Shown piece by piece: positions 101 to 8,286 of a stretch of DNA of 40,798 nucleotides. The notes under the pieces are model-generated. The model saw only the letters and a list, made by a program, of their open reading frames with translations, was not told where the DNA came from and ran no database searches. The translations under genes and the position numbers were made by a program. This DNA is from Natrinema pallidum DSM 3751 (GTDB taxonomy: Archaea > Halobacteriota > Halobacteria > Halobacteriales > Natrialbaceae): the NCBI RefSeq assembly GCF_000337615.1, contig NZ_AOII01000028.1:1-40798 (forward strand), given 5' to 3'. Every line of letters starts with the position of its first letter. Positions within the stretch are counted from its first letter, which is position 1.

Positions 101-787
101 ACTATCAAGCCCGACACGGCGCTTCCCGAGCAGGCAACCGTCGTCGTCACCGGCGCGGATAACGCCGACGCCTTCGCGGACGTACCGACGATCGTCGCCG
201 ACCCCGACGACCCTCGGCGGACTGTCGACCGGGCGCTGGCGGCGGTTCGCGGCAACGGCGGCCGCACGGTCATCGGCGTCGATCCGGGAAAGGAACCCGG
301 GATCGCCGTCCTGACCGGCGAGACCATCGTCGCGACGTTTCAGGTCCCCCTCGGCGACGCGGTCGACGTGATCCAGCGCGAGGCCGCCGAGGCCCCGTCG
401 CCCCTCGTCCGGATCGGCGACGGCTCCCGCCTCGAGAGCGCGAAACTGGTCAACGAACTCGATACCGTGCAGGTCGAACTCGTCGACGAGACGGGGACGA
501 CCCCCTATCTCGGCACGGGCGCGCGGGGCATGGGCGACGTGCTGGCGGCGGTCAACATCGCCCGGCTCGAGGGGGAGGTCGTCGACGCACGCGAGATCGA
601 ACCGACGGAGGGGGAACTGCAGGTCATCAAGGACCGCTCGCGCGAGCGAAGCGAACACAACCGGGCGATCGACGAGGTGCTCGCCCGGCGTGTCGCCGCC
701 GGTGACCTGACCGTCGACGAAGCCCTCGCCGAACATCGAGACGACGGGGACGGATCGGCACCACCGGACGACCCGGACGAGTCGTAG
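101..787 (+). CDS. Hypothetical protein with RuvC/RNase H-like motif, 5' end missing
   Basis: The frame is open from 59 to the TAG at 785-787 but holds no ATG or GTG start before the GTG at 368, which is far too late. Good haloarchaeal codon use begins at 101 (TIKPDTALPEQ...), about where a start codon would be expected. Around 280-315 it reads VIGVDPGKEPGIAVL, which resembles the first strand of RuvC-like RNase H folds, where the Asp binds a metal. The tail is acidic and disordered (DDGDGSAPPDDPDES). The function is unknown. The upstream 100 bases carry a 30-bp repeat, so the native start was probably lost by insertion, rearrangement or misassembly. The gene may be intact in relatives. Confidence 0.6.
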   Translation, partial: TIKPDTALPEQATVVVTGADNADAFADVPTIVADPDDPRRTVDRALAAVRGNGGRTVIGVDPGKEPGIAVLTGETIVATFQVPLGDAVDVIQREAAEAPSPLVRIGDGSRLESAKLVNELDTVQVELVDETGTTPYLGTGARGMGDVLAAVNIARLEGEVVDAREIEPTEGELQVIKDRSRERSEHNRAIDEVLARRVAAGDLTVDEALAEHRDDGDGSAPPDDPDES

Positions 788-943: not shown

Positions 944-2512
944 TTACGCGCCGGCCCAGACGTTCGTCGACGCGACGGACGTGAGCTGGACGTTCTCGTT
1001 CTCCTGCAGGCTGATCTGTGAGCTACCGGCACTGCCGCCGTCTTCGGCGACTGCGACGGCGGTGTGTTGCTCGTTGAGGTTCTCCTGCGTGATGAGTTGG
1101 CTCTGCACGATCGCCGCGCTCGCGGTCTGCTCGGCGTCGTTCGTCTGGTTCGCGGTACCGGCGTAGTCGTACGACGCGCCGGGGATAGCCTCGCCCGCGT
1201 TGCCGTCGACCGTCACGGTCGTACTCGAGGTCCGGGTAACGTCGTCGGTGACGTAGCCGGGGCTCGCGTAGACGTTGATGGCGTCGGCGTAGCCGACCTG
1301 TGCGTTGTAGTTTTGCTGGTAGGCCAGCTGAATCGCGGTGGATTCGCTACCGTTCTGTGCGATGGCCAGTGCGGTGTTTTGCAGGTTGATGTTTCGCTGT
1401 TCGACCGCCTGCTCCTGAGCGACGCCGGCGGTCGCGACCTGTTCGCCGTCGATCCCGTCTTTCTTGTCCTCCTTGTCCGGTTCGCCGACGTCGGTCTCGG
1501 TCGAGAGGATGTCACCGCTGACATTGCCCGCGGTCGCGACGTTCATTCCGGTGGCCGTCGCCATCAGGTTCGAGGCGTCGGCGCTCCCGATCTGTTCGTT
1601 GAGGTTGCTCTGGTCGGTGAACTGGATCGCCGTGGCGGTACTGTTCTCGCCGATGGCGATGGCGACCGCACCGCCCTGTTCGTTGACGTTCTCCTGGACG
1701 ACGTCCTGTGACTGCTCGAGCAGCGCGTCGGCGTCCTGGCCCGTGCTCGAGCCAGCGCCGTGGTCACCCGACTTGTCCTTCTTGTGCCCGACTTTGCCGT
1801 CACCGAGGTAGACGTTCGAGGCGTTGGCCATCCCCTCCTGGAGGTTCTCGTTTCGCTGGTAGGACTGCTGGAGCGCGGTCGCATCGCTGTCGTCCATCGC
1901 GAAGGCGAAGGCGGTGCTCTGGTTGTTGTAGTTGACCTGCCCGACCGTCTGGGACTGGGCAACGCTGGCAACCGCTTCCTGTGTGATCGTCTCATCGCCC
2001 TTCTTGTCCTTGACCCCCCAGCCATCGAACTGCTGGTCGCCGCCGTTGCCGATAATGATGTTGACATCGCCGACGTTCTCGAACTGGGTTGTCGCGGTCT
2101 CTACGCTCCCGCTCTTGGAGATCGCCTCGCCGCTCTGGACGTTATCGTTCTCCTGGTTCGATTCCTGGATGGCGGTTGCCTCGCCGCCGTCGATCGCGAT
2201 CGACACCGCAGAGCCTTGCTCGTTGATGTTGACCTGATCGACGTCCTGGTATTGAACGATCTCGGTATCGGCATTACTCGAGTCGTCCGCGTGTTCGTCG
2301 ACGTACTCCTCGAGCGACTGGTCGCTCAAATCGGCACCGAACACGAGATAGAGTTCCTCACCCTCCTCGAGTGCGTGTACCGTTCCGGCATCCAACTCAC
2401 CCTCTCCGCCTGCGGTCGCAGCCGGCACGCCGGCCGCGACCATCGACAGGGCGATCATACAGGACAGAAAGAGTGTCGTAGTTCGTGAGCGTCTCGTTGT
2501 AGTGGTTGTCAT
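944..2512 (-). CDS. Secreted protein with five curlin-like Q/N repeats
   Basis: A 522-residue protein when started at the MTTTTTRRSR methionine (2512); an upstream ATG at 2572 would add 20 residues ahead of the signal peptide. Residues 1-35 form a signal peptide (Thr/Arg-rich n-region, hydrophobic core, AATAG cleavage area). After a short acidic N-terminal region come five repeats at about residues 87-132, 184-234, 266-316, 365-415 and 468-518. Each reads roughly QxQxVxQxNxNxQxxAxAIA, then ATAIQxxxQxNxNxQ, then A..N. The regular spacing of Q and N with small or aliphatic residues resembles the curlin repeats of CsgA (S-x5-Q-x4-N-x5-Q), which stack as beta-strands in amyloid fibres. Low-complexity Gly/Lys/Asp linkers separate the repeats. 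There is no Cys outside the signal peptide and no membrane or PGF-CTERM anchor. Secretion to the cell surface or medium is well supported; fibre formation is inference. It is divergent from the small secreted gene at 3201. Confidence 0.88.
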   Translation of the reverse strand: MTTTTTRRSRTTTLFLSCMIALSMVAAGVPAATAGGEGELDAGTVHALEEGEELYLVFGADLSDQSLEEYVDEHADDSSNADTEIVQYQDVDQVNINEQGSAVSIAIDGGEATAIQESNQENDNVQSGEAISKSGSVETATTQFENVGDVNIIIGNGGDQQFDGWGVKDKKGDETITQEAVASVAQSQTVGQVNYNNQSTAFAFAMDDSDATALQQSYQRNENLQEGMANASNVYLGDGKVGHKKDKSGDHGAGSSTGQDADALLEQSQDVVQENVNEQGGAVAIAIGENSTATAIQFTDQSNLNEQIGSADASNLMATATGMNVATAGNVSGDILSTETDVGEPDKEDKKDGIDGEQVATAGVAQEQAVEQRNINLQNTALAIAQNGSESTAIQLAYQQNYNAQVGYADAINVYASPGYVTDDVTRTSSTTVTVDGNAGEAIPGASYDYAGTANQTNDAEQTASAAIVQSQLITQENLNEQHTAVAVAEDGGSAGSSQISLQENENVQLTSVASTNVWAGA

Positions 2513-3200
2513 TGATCGTGTGATCTGTATCGTGATGGTCGTTTGTTTCTGAATCTCTGCGATGCAAACCATCCTATCCGCATGAGTCCCTTTGTTATCG
2601 ACAGGTTGGCGGCAGTATGAAGCGGCCTATGGATTCGAAGGCCGCTGCTTATCCGTGGAAATCGGCGGCTTCTCGATCGGATACCGGCCCACGGTTCCGC
2701 AACCGAAAGCATCTTATCGCAAACGAAGGCGGTCGTAACCGTGCCGAATCAAACCGAAGCGAACGCTCACGATACGTGGACCGTTTCGGCCGCCGAATTC
2801 GAATATTAGCGCACAAGAGTCGCGTACCGATCGTTTCACAGGGAGTGATCTCGGTCCCGAGGCGGTCGAACGCGACGGAGAGGAGACACACCCGATAGCG
2901 TCCTCGAAACGAGGACAAGTACTCGACCGCCGGCCGCTGAACGGTCCGCCTGAGACGATAGCCACCCCAATCAGGTGCTCTAATGCCGCTATTCGGTCCG
3001 AAACCGTTTGCCGGGTTCAAATGGGTCCCTGTGATGAGTAGCGACCGGGCAACGCGCCATATCGGGACGCTACCGGGAGAAGGCTGCCTGTTCGCGACCA
3101 GCGACAGCGCCGCCTGACGAGGAGTGTCCTCCCGTATGGATGCGCTCCGGTGTGGTTAGACGCGTGGTGCCCGACTGCACAGCGGTGACCGCAATCCACT
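2513..3200. other. Long divergent intergenic region
   Basis: About 690 bases lie between the divergent genes for the repeat protein and the small secreted protein at 3201. I see no convincing gene. Short open frames on both strands are rich in Arg, Pro and Ser and look like frame shadows of GC-rich DNA. The region presumably holds both promoters, but I could not place a clear TATA box. Confidence 0.5.
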
Positions 3201-3587
3201 ATGAAACGCACACTCACGCTCGCACTGACGGTAGCACTGATCGGCGGCCTCGCTTTCATGGGGTTCGCCGGAACAGCAGCGGCACAGCCGGAGTTCAATC
3301 AAGACGTTAATTCCTCCGTGGATATCGATCAGGACTCGGACGCGACGACGACCATAAACAACGATCAGAGTAACAGCAACTCACAGACCCAGATCGCAGC
3401 ATCGTTCGCCAGTTCGGACGAGAGCTACTCGAAGACTGTTGCGCTCCAGAACCAAGACGTCGACCAGAACAACGTCAACGTCGTTGACGACGTGTACACG
3501 ATCTCCGCGAACCAGGCCAACGACAACGACGCCAATGCGACCGGGATCGACGTCGACGTTGACTTCCCGGCAAATCTCATCACTTAA
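3201..3587 (+). CDS. Small secreted Q/N-rich protein
   Basis: 128 residues with a clean signal peptide (MKRTLTLALTVALIGG... ending GTAAAQ, cleavage near residue 28). The mature part is acidic and rich in Asn, Gln, Asp and Ser, with stretches such as TTINNDQSNSNSQTQIAA and LQNQDVDQNNVNV. These echo the Q/N repeats of the protein at 944-2512. The C-terminal ANDNDANATGIDVDVDF is close to QNATGVDVDF in the protein at 5183, so the two are related. There is no Cys and no membrane anchor. The signal peptide is nearly the same as those of the genes at 5183 and 7666, and all three starts share the context actATGA. The function is unknown; it could be a minor subunit or nucleator for the larger repeat protein, which is inference. 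Confidence 0.8.
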   Translation: MKRTLTLALTVALIGGLAFMGFAGTAAAQPEFNQDVNSSVDIDQDSDATTTINNDQSNSNSQTQIAASFASSDESYSKTVALQNQDVDQNNVNVVDDVYTISANQANDNDANATGIDVDVDFPANLIT

Positions 3588-3611
3588 GGATAGCAGCCCA
3601 CGTTAGCAACA

Positions 3612-3630
3612 GCGTACGCTTTTATTTTTG
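3612..3630 (+). terminator. T-rich archaeal terminator
   Basis: The run ttttattttt at 3620-3629 lies about 35 bases after the stop of the secreted gene at 3201. T-rich tracts are the usual archaeal termination signal. The other two small secreted genes (5183, 7666) also end in gct followed by a T run. Confidence 0.5.
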
Positions 3631-3955
3631 GAGTCTAGCGGAGAGACTACTGTTGTCCACCTCGAGAGAGCGAGGAGCGAAGATATCGGCGGCGAGCTGC
3701 GGCGTCGATCACTACTGCGTATTACAGGCGATGACTGCGCGTTCGCCGTGCAACCCGTCTCGAACCGACCACCCACCGTCGTACGACGCGCTTCCGCCGT
3801 CGCCCTCGTCGGCCGTCCTGCCCACGATCGTCACGGTGCCCTCGTACTCGCCGCCTTGATCTCGAGTGCATCAGATCGCTCACCGTTCCGGTCTCCTCGG
3901 TCCGTATTCGGGTGACGGACTCTCGAGCCGCGACCTGGTGACCGCCTCGAGTGGT

Positions 3956-4010
3956 CTATCGGAGCCACTGCACACCCGATTGCACGACAGTTGTGCAGTG
4001 GCTCCGATAG
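3956..4010. repeat. Perfect 19-bp inverted repeat with 17-base spacer
   Basis: Arms at 3956-3974 (ctatcggagccactgcaca) and 3992-4010 (its exact reverse complement) flank a 17-base spacer. The remaining sequence of the 3588-4146 gap is GC-rich without a convincing gene. A perfect arm of this length outside a gene may be the ends of a very short MITE, two abutting insertion-sequence ends, or a strong RNA hairpin. A transposase remnant lies 360 bases downstream, which favours a mobile origin, but I cannot match the arms to a named element. Confidence 0.7.
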
Positions 4011-4146
4011 TTCCGTGGCGGCTTGTTTAGACGCGGAACAACAATGCGTTCCACGCACTTGACCCGACGAATCGGACTGTCGGGTTAATTGGATTACCGG
4101 CGCAGAAATCACCACGCTTATTGAATTTTCAACAAGACTGCCAACT

Positions 4147-4341
4147 ATGAAGACTATCGTGAGAGGAGCGATCTCGGTCGTGCTTGCGTTGTTTCTCGGG
4201 GTTTCAATCTCATTCATGCTGAGTCCGGATCCGACGGGAATCACTCCGATACTCCTCGGACTGGTTCTGACAGGTGTTCTGATTCCAGCCTGCTATTTCG
4301 TACTCTACAGAACGGTTACAGATCAGCAGGCTTCGTCTTGA
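4147..4341 (+). CDS. Small two-helix membrane protein
   Basis: 64 residues starting MKTIVRGAISVVLALF. Two hydrophobic segments, about residues 7-25 and 33-53, are joined by a short loop (SPDPTGITP), followed by a short polar tail (RTVTDQQASS). The layout is that of a small integral membrane protein of unknown role. It stands alone between the inverted repeat at 3956-4010 and the transposase remnant at 4373. No family could be named from sequence alone, but membrane topology and haloarchaeal codon use make a real gene more likely than not. Confidence 0.55.
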   Translation: MKTIVRGAISVVLALFLGVSISFMLSPDPTGITPILLGLVLTGVLIPACYFVLYRTVTDQQASS

Positions 4342-4372
4342 TCGGTTCAGTCGATGCTAACCGAAATCAGGA

Positions 4373-4645
4373 AGGCGGTTCGATATTCCTCACAGCCGCT
4401 TTTAGAATACGGTCCGGAACTGTCCGAACCATGCCCGAGCCCGGAGCGTGTCACTGTCCCGCTGCTTGAGCGCAACGAAGACGGCCTCAACTACTGCTCG
4501 GCGATGATGGATTTTATTATTATGTCGATCATTGTATTTCATATAAAGAAGATGGCATTCACGATATTTGATCAGTAGCCGAACGCCGGCTTCCCGAAGT
4601 TCTTCACGCAAATCGCCCCAGTCATATCCGTTGTCAGCGGTACCG
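4373..4645 (-). pseudogene. Remnant of IS5-family (ISH-type) transposase, C-terminal part
   Basis: On the minus strand the frame reads ADNGYDWGDLREELREAG, then a region ending in VVEAVFVALKQRDSDTLRARAWFGQF. This matches the C-terminal part of haloarchaeal IS5-type transposases (DKGYDW..L, then the SVVEAVF.ALK region with the last catalytic Glu). The rest is broken: no start or N-terminal catalytic region is recognisable upstream, and after FGQFRTV a frameshift and stop (near 4402) separate the frame from the usual LKAAVRNIE ending, which continues in another frame at 4373-4405. Several charged residues are altered, so this is an old, inactive copy. Its AT content is higher than its surroundings. 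Confidence 0.75.
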
Positions 4646-4730
4646 GTCCGTAATCGGTTGCGATTCCGCGTGAGTCCCCTGCCGCCCAACTCGGGTATCG
4701 TGAGGCTGCTTCATCGAACAGTACATATCC

Positions 4731-5182
4731 AGGGTCGTACTGGTTTCCGTTCCGTGGTGTTCTGACGGGTTGTACCGTTGATCTCGAACAGCAGTAGTGA
4801 GATGCTATTCGCCGGTGGCGAATATGGCCAGCAAGTACGTTGTGCTCAAATTCGGACGCAGAGACAGGTTATATCCGTCTCTGCCCCCATCGGATTGGGG
4901 ACAACGAGTTGATATTCCGTATCGGCTACTAAAAAACAGCTACTGGCAGTAGTTTCGGAGAACGCTCGAGCGGTACACTGTAGGGCAGGAGTAGGGTTCT
5001 GAACGGTATTCAGCCTTCATATGGAACACTGCGGTCGTGATCGACCAGGTGACGCATCGTGATACGCGGGCATTCGCAGTCAAAGAACGACGGAGTGGTG
5101 GAGTGATCGAAACGATCCGTGTCCTATCGAAGGGCCCGCTTGTACACGGTGCGCTCGCCCAGACGAACACAGCAACCTAACT
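4731..5182. other. Intergenic region with two adjacent hairpins
   Basis: No convincing gene. An 8-bp perfect stem (gcagagac / gtctctgc, 4858-4884, 11-base loop) is followed at once by a second stem (cccca / tgggg, 4885-4900, 6-base loop). Further on, 4940-4952 is a near-palindrome (ctactggcagtag). These could be part of a small RNA or of the 5' region of the secreted gene at 5183. A TATA box could not be placed with confidence. Confidence 0.5.
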
Positions 5183-5968
5183 ATGAGACGAACATCCACG
5201 GTACTACTGACGCTCGCGTTAATTGGAAGCCTGGCGGTCATGGGCTTTGCAGGAACGGCAGCTGCAGGTGGTGAGCATCACGACGACGACGACGACAAGC
5301 GGATCGGTGACCTGGGGATCGCAGAGACGAACATCGAGCAGGGACAAGACGTTTCCCAGGTGAACCAGATCGAACAGAACGCGCTCCAGTTCGCCGATCA
5401 GAACGCGACCGGGGTCGACGTTGACTTCAACGAGCGCGTGATGGATGGCGGCGATAACGGTGCTGACGGGACCCAGCCGGGTATTCAGACCGTCACGTTC
5501 ACCCAATCGGAAGGACCGAACCCAGTCGCCGTGTTCGAATGGGACGGAGACGAGTTCGTCCTTATCGACTCCATCCAGTCGGTCGAAGTGGGTGATATCA
5601 CCGTGACCGCGACTGCGTTCAACGAGCAGGGAGAACCGATCGAAGCGACGTATACCCTCAACGATGGGCTGCCGCCTGGACAGGCCCCGACCACTGCAAC
5701 TGTCGCGTCGAACGGGCAGACGTGTGACTTCACTGTCCCTGAGGTGACCGGTGCACCTGATCTCCCCGTTAGCGGAACGGTGTCCGTGTGTTCGACCGAC
5801 GGCAACGGCGATAACGGTGGCACTGGTGGCGTCACCATCGACGGCTCTACCGGCGACCAAACGATCAATCAGACGCTGGAACAGTCGGTCGACGCGTCCA
5901 ACAATAACGGGCAGACCGCCAACGGGTCCGCATTCAGCGGCAATCTGGCCGCACTCATCGCTGGCTGA
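5183..5968 (+). CDS. Secreted protein with Q/N segments and Cys-pair domain
   Basis: 261 residues with a signal peptide of about 28 residues (MRRTSTVLLTLALIGSLAV... GTAAAGG), followed by an acidic stretch (HHDDDDDK). Residues 48-78 (NIEQGQDVSQVNQIEQNALQ, then FADQNATG) carry the Q/N repeat pattern of the 944-2512 protein. Residues 103-203 form a domain shared with the protein at 7666: both have a GDEFV-I core, a G-TCD-V segment and a second Cys. Here they are Cys181 and Cys203, probably a disulfide outside the cell. The C-terminus returns to Q/N repeats (DQTINQTLEQSVDASNNNGQ). There is no anchor. The protein thus combines repeat segments with the Cys-pair domain, linking the four secreted genes of this region. 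The function is unknown. Confidence 0.85.
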   Translation: MRRTSTVLLTLALIGSLAVMGFAGTAAAGGEHHDDDDDKRIGDLGIAETNIEQGQDVSQVNQIEQNALQFADQNATGVDVDFNERVMDGGDNGADGTQPGIQTVTFTQSEGPNPVAVFEWDGDEFVLIDSIQSVEVGDITVTATAFNEQGEPIEATYTLNDGLPPGQAPTTATVASNGQTCDFTVPEVTGAPDLPVSGTVSVCSTDGNGDNGGTGGVTIDGSTGDQTINQTLEQSVDASNNNGQTANGSAFSGNLAALIAG

Positions 5969-5998
5969 GAGGGTCGCTCTCCGGCCGATTCCACGTTC

Positions 5999-6008
5999 GC
6001 TTTTTTAT
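5999..6008 (+). terminator. T-rich terminator after secreted gene
   Basis: Six T residues (6001-6006, gcttttttata) about 30 bases after the stop of the 5183 gene, matching the T tracts behind the genes at 3201 and 7666. Confidence 0.5.
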
Positions 6009-6162
6009 ACGTTGTGCTCGAGTCGATTAGGCGACCGTATCGACCAGACGACTGGCCCGACTCGAGGCCGAGTGACGGCGACTCCGGATGCCATGTTCGC
6101 GGTCACGGAGTCGCATCGAGCCCTGCCGCTCGAGAGAGTATCCTTACGGGGCGTTAACAGTA

Positions 6163-6327
6163 GATATAAGTGACAACCCATCAAACTGAAAACCGGAAGC
6201 CGGTCTCCAGCGGCAAGGGGGCGTATCGAAATGCCCCGGGTGGTCATAGCACCCGAGACTCGCTTCCAAACCCGCGAGGGTTCCGAAGCATGATTACGTT
6301 GATTCTACCGGGATATAAACGTCCCGC
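6163..6327 (+). ncRNA. Candidate structured RNA with promoter-like TATA box
   Basis: A TATA-like gatataag lies at 6163-6170. About 25 bases later starts a series of hairpins: accgg/ccggt (6192-6204), ggggc/gcccc (6218-6237, wobble-extendable), cgggtg/cacccg (6237-6255), and a two-part stem gcttc/gaagc enclosing aaccc-GCGA-gggtt (6262-6289), which has a GNRA tetraloop. A further short stem cggga/tcccg lies near 6308-6327. The density of stems between two genes, with a promoter at the right distance, suggests a small non-coding RNA. It matches no RNA family I know (not tRNA, RNase P or 7S RNA). The last stem overlaps a second TATA-like sequence that may serve the gene at 6393. Confidence 0.4.
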
Positions 6328-6392
6328 ACGACGGCAGAACCGCCCGACGCGACCAGTGTCGACGCCGCGCTCGATCGGGAGGTGCGCTCGCG

Positions 6393-6608
6393 ATGTGTAG
6401 CGAGGGGACGGGAGATGGCGACGACGGCCGAATGGACGACTCGGCACTGCTCTCGTGTCCCAGTTGCGGGCAGCCCATTACCGCGCTGACATCGACCGGC
6501 CCCCATACTGGCGTCGTCAGGCCCTGTGGCTGTTCGGTCGCACCTGGGCTGCTCCACCGCGAGACTGACAGCGGCAGCCACCGCGAGACCGACCGCAGCG
6601 ACGAGTAA
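6393..6608 (+). CDS. Small CPxCG zinc-finger protein
   Basis: 71 residues from ATG 6393, or 58 from the in-frame ATG at 6432 (MDDSALLSCPSCGQPI). The core LSCPSCGQPITALTS and the later VVRPCGCSV give two Cys pairs (CPSCG and CGC) that could bind one zinc. This is the pattern of the many small CPxCG-type proteins of haloarchaea. The tail is hydrophilic (HRETDSGSHRETDRSDE). The role is unknown; such proteins are often regulatory. The second start leaves a more typical short N-terminus. A TATA-like gggatataaac (about 6310-6320) could drive it. Confidence 0.6.
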   Translation: MCSEGTGDGDDGRMDDSALLSCPSCGQPITALTSTGPHTGVVRPCGCSVAPGLLHRETDSGSHRETDRSDE

Positions 6609-7665
6609 TCGGGGCTCGGCGCTCGAGTCCAGTCGTCTCCGATCGGCACACCGTCCTCCACGGCGGAACCAGCAGTGGATCGCGTGGCGAACTGCCAGCG
6701 TCTCGAGCGTGGTGTGTAACTGGGACTGACGGGAGCGAAGCGTCCGACCCTCGGGGCAGGGAGTGACCGCGTCCTTCCCCTTCCCAGCCGATTCGCTCGC
6801 TCAGCCACCGCCGGAGCACGCGCTGCCAACGCCTCGCACGCTGTCGTCGACTGCCCTCGGTCTCCCCCGGGTAGTCGACAACGCGCGCCACCGCGTGCCA
6901 CCAGTCGGGAGTGATTCGTAGACCCCCTGTACAGAGCGGTTCGATGACGCCGATCTCACGAATCGGAGCGCTGGTGGCCCCAGCCCGGCCGCCAGGACAC
7001 TCGAAGCGGTCGCTCCTACCGAACGGTCGCGGCCGTCGGTAGGCACACCGCGATCCCAGTCCGCCACCGGTCCGCCCCGGGAGTAGACCGGCCGACGAAA
7101 CGGAAGGTCGTCGTTAGGGACTGTCGGTAGTAGGTCGGCGTTCGGCTCGCCGCGATCGACCAGCGGGTCCCGATGGCGACGGCGAGACGACGATTTTCGT
7201 CTCGAGCCCTCGCTTCGAATCGGTCGAAAACCGTAACAACGGCGGCCGTTGCCGGGGGTACGTGGTCGTTCCGTCGGGAGCCGTCCGATCGGCAAGCGAC
7301 CGACTCGCTCTCCGCCTTCCTGAATTATGATATTCGTGATATGATCGGCGAAGCTGATACGAGCGCTGTAATTCGGTCGCAGCGGTATATCACCCCCTTA
7401 ACTCCGTTCTACAATACTGATTCTTACACGTTGGAACGATTTAGTTTCGCCGATTTTATACAATCTTCTCAGCCACACAATTTAGATATCGACTATCCGT
7501 TTGAACGGTGTTTCGCCTTCATATGGCCGTACACGGTCGATTTCGACGGGTGATCCGCATGGAAAAGCGAGTCACGGCCGACGCGCGATGCGGTGAACCG
7601 TGACAACCCGTGTCCCATCGGGCAGCGTTCGACTCCGTGTGTGATCATCCGAGCTTCAGGAAACT
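6609..7665. other. Long gap, probably with a decayed minus-strand gene
   Basis: About 1 kb without an intact gene. On the minus strand three stretches look like protein but lie in different frames. Around 7270-7050 one reads TVFDRFEARARDENRRLAVA and beyond. Around 7020-6960 another reads SSVLAAGLGPPALRFV. Around 6960-6790 a third reads GLRITPDWWHAVARVVDY and then RRWQRVLRRWLSERIGWEGEG. A single ancestral gene broken by frameshifts would explain this, but no family is recognised. The part 7320-7560 is AT-richer and holds nothing I can name. It may include promoter sequence for the gene at 7666. Confidence 0.3.
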
Positions 7666-8286
7666 ATGAAACGGATATTCACTGCACTGTTGACAGTCGC
7701 CCTCGTCGGAAGCATGATGGTTGCAGGTGTTGCCGGCACGGCAACCGCAGGCCAGAACGAAAACACCGACGCGGACGCGATCGACTCCATCACGTTTTAC
7801 AACGACGATGGCGATCTCGAGCAGTTCGCCAAGGCGACGTGGACCGGCGACGAGTTCGTGATCGAAAAACTGGACGGCAACGACGACGTCTCCCTGACCC
7901 CCACGGAGTACACCGACGACGGCCCGGTCGAAGTCGAGTGGACGTACGAAGGGTACGTCGGCAGCGACCACCCGGATCTGGTCCGCGTCACCGCCGGCGG
8001 TGAGACGTGCGACTACGCGGTCGACTCGAGCACCTATCCGTTCACCGGCACGGCGACGGCGTGTGACTTCGCCGATGACGACGGCGATAGCGAGGACGGC
8101 AATGGCGAGGACGGCGAAGACGACAACGCTGACGACGGTGAGGAAACTGATGGCGACGACGAGTACGAGGTCCCCGACGACGAGACGATCGACGAGGCCG
8201 TCGACGGAATCGTCGACTCGACGACCGACTCGGAAACTCAGACGTCGTCCGCGATTGCCGACCTGGTCGGACTCCTCCTCGGCTGA
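7666..8286 (+). CDS. Small secreted protein with Cys-pair domain
   Basis: 206 residues with a signal peptide (MKRIFTALLTVALVGSMM... GTATAG, about 28 residues) nearly the same as those of the genes at 3201 and 5183. Residues 42-133 match residues 103-203 of the 5183 protein: TF..., WTGDEFVIEKL, then GGETCDYAV, and a second Cys (Cys115 and Cys133, a probable disulfide). Next comes a very acidic, disordered Asp/Glu/Gly tail (about 135-185), then DSETQTSSAIADLVGLLLG, which resembles the end of the 5183 protein (NLAALIAG). It lacks the Q/N repeats. It is a third member of the local secreted family, function unknown. Confidence 0.85.
   Translation: MKRIFTALLTVALVGSMMVAGVAGTATAGQNENTDADAIDSITFYNDDGDLEQFAKATWTGDEFVIEKLDGNDDVSLTPTEYTDDGPVEVEWTYEGYVGSDHPDLVRVTAGGETCDYAVDSSTYPFTGTATACDFADDDGDSEDGNGEDGEDDNADDGEETDGDDEYEVPDDETIDEAVDGIVDSTTDSETQTSSAIADLVGLLLG

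Follow-up and report, generated by a model that had tools for sequence, protein, structure and literature searches.

The 40,798-nucleotide stretch of Natrinema pallidum DSM 3751 DNA analysed here (the window) encodes a probable haloarchaeal two-component secreted system, in which a large protein with five Gln/Asn-rich units is accompanied by small secreted proteins carrying a single unit of the same type. Most likely, at a probability of about one half, the five-unit protein and its one-unit partners co-assemble into an extracellular cross-β polymer. The large/small protein pair is real and conserved and, as far as the open-access literature shows, undescribed before, no description of the family having been found there. 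The units, their number and spacing, the secretion and anchor signals, and the divergent gene pairing are established at the level of sequence and are described in turn below.

The Large Five-Unit Protein

The large secreted protein (positions 944–2512, minus strand) has 522 residues, or 542 when read from the upstream ATG at 2572, and includes a Sec-type signal peptide different from that of the small neighbours, a conserved N-terminal segment (ELYLVFGADL..SLEEYVDEHA), and five two-ladder Q/N units with linkers. The unit is composed of two copies of the ladder QxxxQxNxNxQ, so that the five units provide ten ladders, all of them perfect. Units 1 to 5 are located on the minus strand at 2108–2266 (boundaries approximate), 1805–1969, 1556–1726, 1262–1429, and 950–1120, with the ladders starting at residues 89/116, 188/215, 269/297, 368/395, and 472/499, respectively. 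The Q.N.N.Q pattern was matched 10 times; among 5000 shuffles of the same composition the average was 0.03 and the highest count 2. This confirms the regular five-repeat Q/N ladder that the first-pass annotation had described in this open reading frame. The Gln/Asn residues of the protein are autocorrelated at lags 2, 4, 6, 8, and 10, as expected of a β-strand with one Gln/Asn face. The same annotation proposed that each protein of the cluster is secreted by its own signal peptide, and this agrees with the predicted Sec-type signal of the large protein and the signal peptides predicted for the small proteins beginning at 3201, 5183, and 7666.

Distribution and Anatomy of the Family

The large protein was found in the N. 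pallidum genome and in all 28 Natrinema genus-mates searched, and among the loci collected Natrinema gari and N. altunense are the nearest relatives that have a name. Within Natrialbaceae the family occurs in 99 of 125 genomes, representing 26 of 29 genera, and it extends to Haladaptatus and related genera. Among 393 genomes drawn from the whole phylum the unit matches were confined to Natrialbaceae; the draw included no Haladaptatus match and is thus not exhaustive. No relatives were found in phage records. Family members are named “hypothetical” or “PGF-CTERM sorting domain-containing” in public records, and in Pfam and NCBIfam scans neither the four window proteins nor the family members matched an informative family except for the PGF-CTERM tail.

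The anatomy was studied in 122 non-redundant homologues out of 164 large open reading frames gathered. Exactly five units are present in 121 of them, the remaining one having six by profile. The spacing from ladder to ladder amounts to 27 residues in units 1, 2, and 4, as it nearly always does in unit 5, while in unit 3 it is 28 residues in all 110 homologues measured. Across 555 units the entropy is near zero in the Gln/Asn columns of the ladders and low in most flanking Ala columns, while the interleaved columns between ladder residues vary freely (about 2 nats). The linkers are variable, with 35–108 residues between the second ladder of a unit and the first ladder of the next.

A PGF-CTERM signal is present at the C-terminus of several large homologues, as it is in surface proteins anchored by archaeosortase: Pfam PF18204 was matched in 6 of 16 members, TIGR04126 in the homologue L035 (36.5 bits at an NCBIfam curated cut-off of 24.5), and the PGFG motif in 16 of the 122 non-redundant homologues. 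Unlike these proteins, the window protein is without the tail, and the family is defined by its units and not by an anchor; archaeosortase A is encoded in the N. pallidum genome. One further group of large homologues possesses Tat-type signals.

The Small Secreted Proteins

Three small secreted proteins are encoded on the plus strand of the window. The first (3201–3587, 128 aa) contains one Q/N unit with the halves swapped (B then A); in the second (5183–5968, 261 aa) a two-Cys domain appears to be inserted between the A half and the B half; and the third (7666–8286, 206 aa) consists of a signal peptide and a two-Cys domain related to that of the second, without a ladder. The signal peptides of the three, previously called near-identical, are clearly alike, although this term is too strong for about 75% and 57% identity (estimated by eye) of the 3201 signal peptide to the other two. 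Within the genome this type of signal peptide is confined to the cluster, and the 3201 protein matches only the 5183 and 7666 proteins, via the signal peptides. The two-Cys domain has no Pfam match; the 7666 protein aligns to the 5183 relative in locus L021 (E 2e-7), and domains resembling it are found in small proteins elsewhere, at other loci.

The Q/N segments that the first-pass annotation saw in the 3201 and 5183 proteins are present as half-units, but those of the former are weaker than the single units of other genera, and the A half of the latter scores 11.5 bits, which is approximately the level of the best shuffle. In single-sequence searches the half-units of both proteins were no better than shuffles. 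A relative of the 5183 protein, L026_5583, is clearer (16.7 bits) and supports the half-unit reading. The swapped B-A order was supported only by the small-family profile, which is built from a mixed set gathered in part by the likeness of the signal peptides: in hhalign (E 0.0015 and 3.5e-6) positions 17–40 of this profile align to the B half and positions 45–71 to the A half. Small proteins of the 3201 type in other Natrinema loci have the same order of halves. We read the swapped halves as a circular permutation of the unit, which would be tolerated if the units stack head to tail.

In other genera the single units are complete. With the large-unit profile they were detected in small secreted proteins of the loci L066 and L067 (Haladaptatus-type) and L059/L060, the best match among 9406 six-frame open reading frames being in L066 (E 1.7e-16), where five tandem secreted genes with single or partial units are located at 4038–5979 of this Haladaptatus sequence. 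The first-pass idea of a multi-unit protein paired with single-unit relatives is upheld. The small proteins are diverse between lineages.

Gene Pairing and the Locus

The large gene and the 3201 gene are divergent and have a common intergenic region (2513–3200). About 100 bp of it upstream of the signal-peptide ATG of the large gene (2513–2610), including TCGATAACAAAG, are conserved across Natrinema; since a part of this segment reads as an N-terminal extension from the ATG at 2572, the conservation may belong to a promoter or leader as well as to coding sequence.

The pairing was counted for large genes with enough upstream sequence and for small genes within 2.2 kb, detected by a crude rule of signal peptide and composition. 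Of 77 large genes that are Sec-type and unanchored, 66 have a divergent small secreted gene beside them (62 when a Q/N content of at least 10% was required), at a distance of 500–760 bp in 56 of these 66 pairs (median 694). The corresponding counts were 8 of 16 for large genes of the PGF-CTERM type and 0 of 23 for the Tat-type paralogues, and same-strand small candidates were seen in only 5 of 122 cases. That large and small genes occur together in other haloarchaea, on which the first-pass annotation had made its proposal depend, holds up. The locus also keeps its surroundings, being flanked by genes for Cdc48-type AAA ATPases and, at the opposite end, by a RadA-like gene (names read from the sequences), so the pairing there partly reflects vertical inheritance; yet a plasmid locus of Haladaptatus, with other gene surroundings, contains two divergent single-unit genes. 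The neighbours of the large gene in 30 loci include no conserved secretion or chaperone gene.

Some other elements were observed in this part of the window. An uncharacterised open reading frame at 368–787 (plus strand) has no match in Pfam or NCBIfam; 14 of 30 loci retain it beside the large gene. A DDE transposase remnant (4402–4689, minus strand; PF01609, E 2.6e-5) lies between the 3201 and 5183 genes, a possible 64-aa membrane protein (4147–4341, plus strand) with no family above the cut-off lies between the secreted genes, and a perfect 19-nt inverted repeat with a 17-nt spacer (3956–4010) is intergenic after the 3201 gene. The Rfam search of the first 14 kb gave no match.

Structure Prediction

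The AlphaFold model of the full-length large protein with eight homologues has a pLDDT of 33 and is usable for secondary structure only, in which ten strands of 18–27 residues are paired into five units. The two-unit model, calculated from a 32-row alignment of the window protein and its relatives, reaches a pLDDT of 75–82 in the units and a pTM of 0.42, with predicted strands at 5–29, 33–54, 86–110, and 115–137 and a low-confidence linker. The short turns of this model suggest that the units are β-hairpins. Of the stacked β-solenoid anticipated earlier, the β-structure is thus predicted, but in the form of long hairpins and with no clear solenoid. A spacing of 27 residues between ladders is also compatible with parallel stacking, and because Q-x-N-x-N-x-Q is palindromic, parallel and antiparallel registers both put like on like. 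Direct coupling and mutual information analysis of the 555 units did not discriminate between antiparallel and parallel strand pairing, the invariant columns dominating the raw scores. Foldseek comparison of the unit-pair model with the PDB gave no significant match, and the FapC entry 9u4u at E=6.5 is not evidence.

Likeness to FapC and to the Methanospirillum Sheath

FapC is a proven functional amyloid with three almost invariant repeats per chain, variable linkers, and conserved Asn/Gln (PMC12392863, PMC12822426). The haloarchaeal family is similar to the FapC/FapB pair of Pseudomonas in the fixed number of imperfect repeats (five in 121 of 122 homologues), linkers varying within 35–108 residues, invariant Asn/Gln, secretion, and paired homologous subunits. 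It differs from FapC in having five units instead of three, a strict alternating QxNxNxQ ladder, one-unit partners, and apparently no fap secretion operon (fapABCDEF), conserved secretion genes being absent among the neighbours in 30 loci. When the unit profiles A2 and A4 were compared with all PDB chains at E≤10, only an insignificant PhoQ match was obtained and none to FapC. Since a fixed number of units is separated by linkers, the architecture is closer to FapC than to CsgA, and FapC is the closest architectural analogue, without detectable sequence kinship.

The sheath protein SH of Methanospirillum is an archaeal amyloid-like extracellular β-arch polymer (PMC10593813). The present system is comparable to it as a putative archaeal extracellular β polymer and differs in organism group and lifestyle.

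Proposed Mechanism

In the proposed mechanism the β unit would be formed by two strands of about 24 residues, each with a QxxxQxNxNxQ ladder. The five-unit protein and its one-unit partners would be exported separately and, outside the cell, would most likely co-assemble into a cross-β polymer by stacking of their unvarying Gln/Asn and Ala faces. The polymer would grow by single-unit proteins as its subunits, while the five-unit protein would serve as a ready-made nucleus or backbone, held at the membrane in those lineages that have the PGF-CTERM signal; this division of roles is suggested by analogy with CsgB/CsgA and FapB/FapC. Extracellular co-assembly best explains why five-unit and one-unit proteins, invariant ladders, separate export, and a conserved gene pairing occur together. 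Polymerisation and a role at the surface or in the matrix would be part of this model, and a functional-amyloid-like mechanism is plausible for the pair. Against co-assembly stand the full-length pLDDT of 33, the pair model with a pTM of 0.42 and no significant PDB match, the half-units of the window small proteins, which individually are at the shuffle level and emerge only through the mixed family profile, and the Tat-type paralogues, which have no adjoining small partner (0 of 23).

A more specific version, held only tentatively, is that of a haloarchaeal functional amyloid independent of curli and Fap, in which the five-unit protein nucleates or anchors fibres of single-unit, even circularly permuted, subunits that would be exported without a dedicated machine and be stable in molar salt.

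Alternative Explanations

The main rival, less likely in our estimate, takes the large protein for a closed, soluble β protein of five hairpins that acts as an adhesin or binding scaffold, with the small proteins as single-hairpin ligands or caps and no polymer formed. A unit number fixed at five would be just as consistent with a closed globular fold, and the constant spacing of 28 in unit 3, the hairpin-like AlphaFold units, and the membrane anchor of some homologues are in accordance with it. However, long variable linkers and recurring one-unit secreted proteins suit stacking better, and a fixed number of repeats is seen in the FapC amyloid too (PMC12822426).

An improbable explanation is that these are secreted surface proteins whose units have another function, such as cell-cell adhesion, S-layer or glycan binding, or competition, with no polymerisation. 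The two-Cys domain of the 5183 and 7666 proteins together with the acidic linkers suggests extra functions, and the diversity of the small proteins between lineages is also consistent with this; alone it leaves the one-unit/five-unit design and the near-invariant ladder face unexplained.

A true archaeal curli system with CsgA and CsgB homologues is very improbable and was rejected. Q/N ladders, β repeats, and a secreted subunit with large and small relatives are indeed shared with CsgA/CsgB, and one archaeal protein bearing curli-like repeats had already been mentioned in 2012 (PMC3521004). Nevertheless, family membership, as the curli resemblance drawn in the first-pass annotation might imply, did not hold. 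The profile search with PF07012 suggested there gave no match in the N. pallidum genome at E≤1, the E. coli control being over the cut-off, and no curlin match among the family members tested at E≤10. Matches to PF07012 below the cut-off were observed in the control genomes of Haloferax volcanii and Methanosarcina acetivorans. CsgG (PF03783) is absent from the N. pallidum genome while the controls were positive, in agreement with the earlier remark that no CsgG-like secretion gene is present; an outer-membrane exporter of this kind is unexpected in an archaeon. The curli motif is essentially absent, with 0.7 occurrences per protein of Q-X-G-X2-N and 0.08 of QX4NX5Q, and instead of the minimal curli repeat X6QXGX2NX10 (22–23 aa, placed end to end) the family has two-ladder units with a period of 27/28 and linkers between them.

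Finally, a low-complexity or compositional coincidence without function, which the Q/N-rich and Ala-rich composition might suggest, is refuted by the strict register, the cross-genus conservation, and the conserved gene pairing and deserves practically no credence.

Significance

In biofilms of Haloferax volcanii dyes suggest amyloid, while the protein is not established and only a candidate has been proposed (PMC4180959). With co-assembly of the five-unit protein and its one-unit partners as the preferred reading, the present family is a concrete and widely conserved amyloid candidate in other haloarchaea, with a defined subunit and possible nucleator genes, and through it one can test directly whether amyloid matrices are built by haloarchaea. 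If true, it would represent an independent second solution, one whose fixed Gln/Asn ladders work in molar salt.
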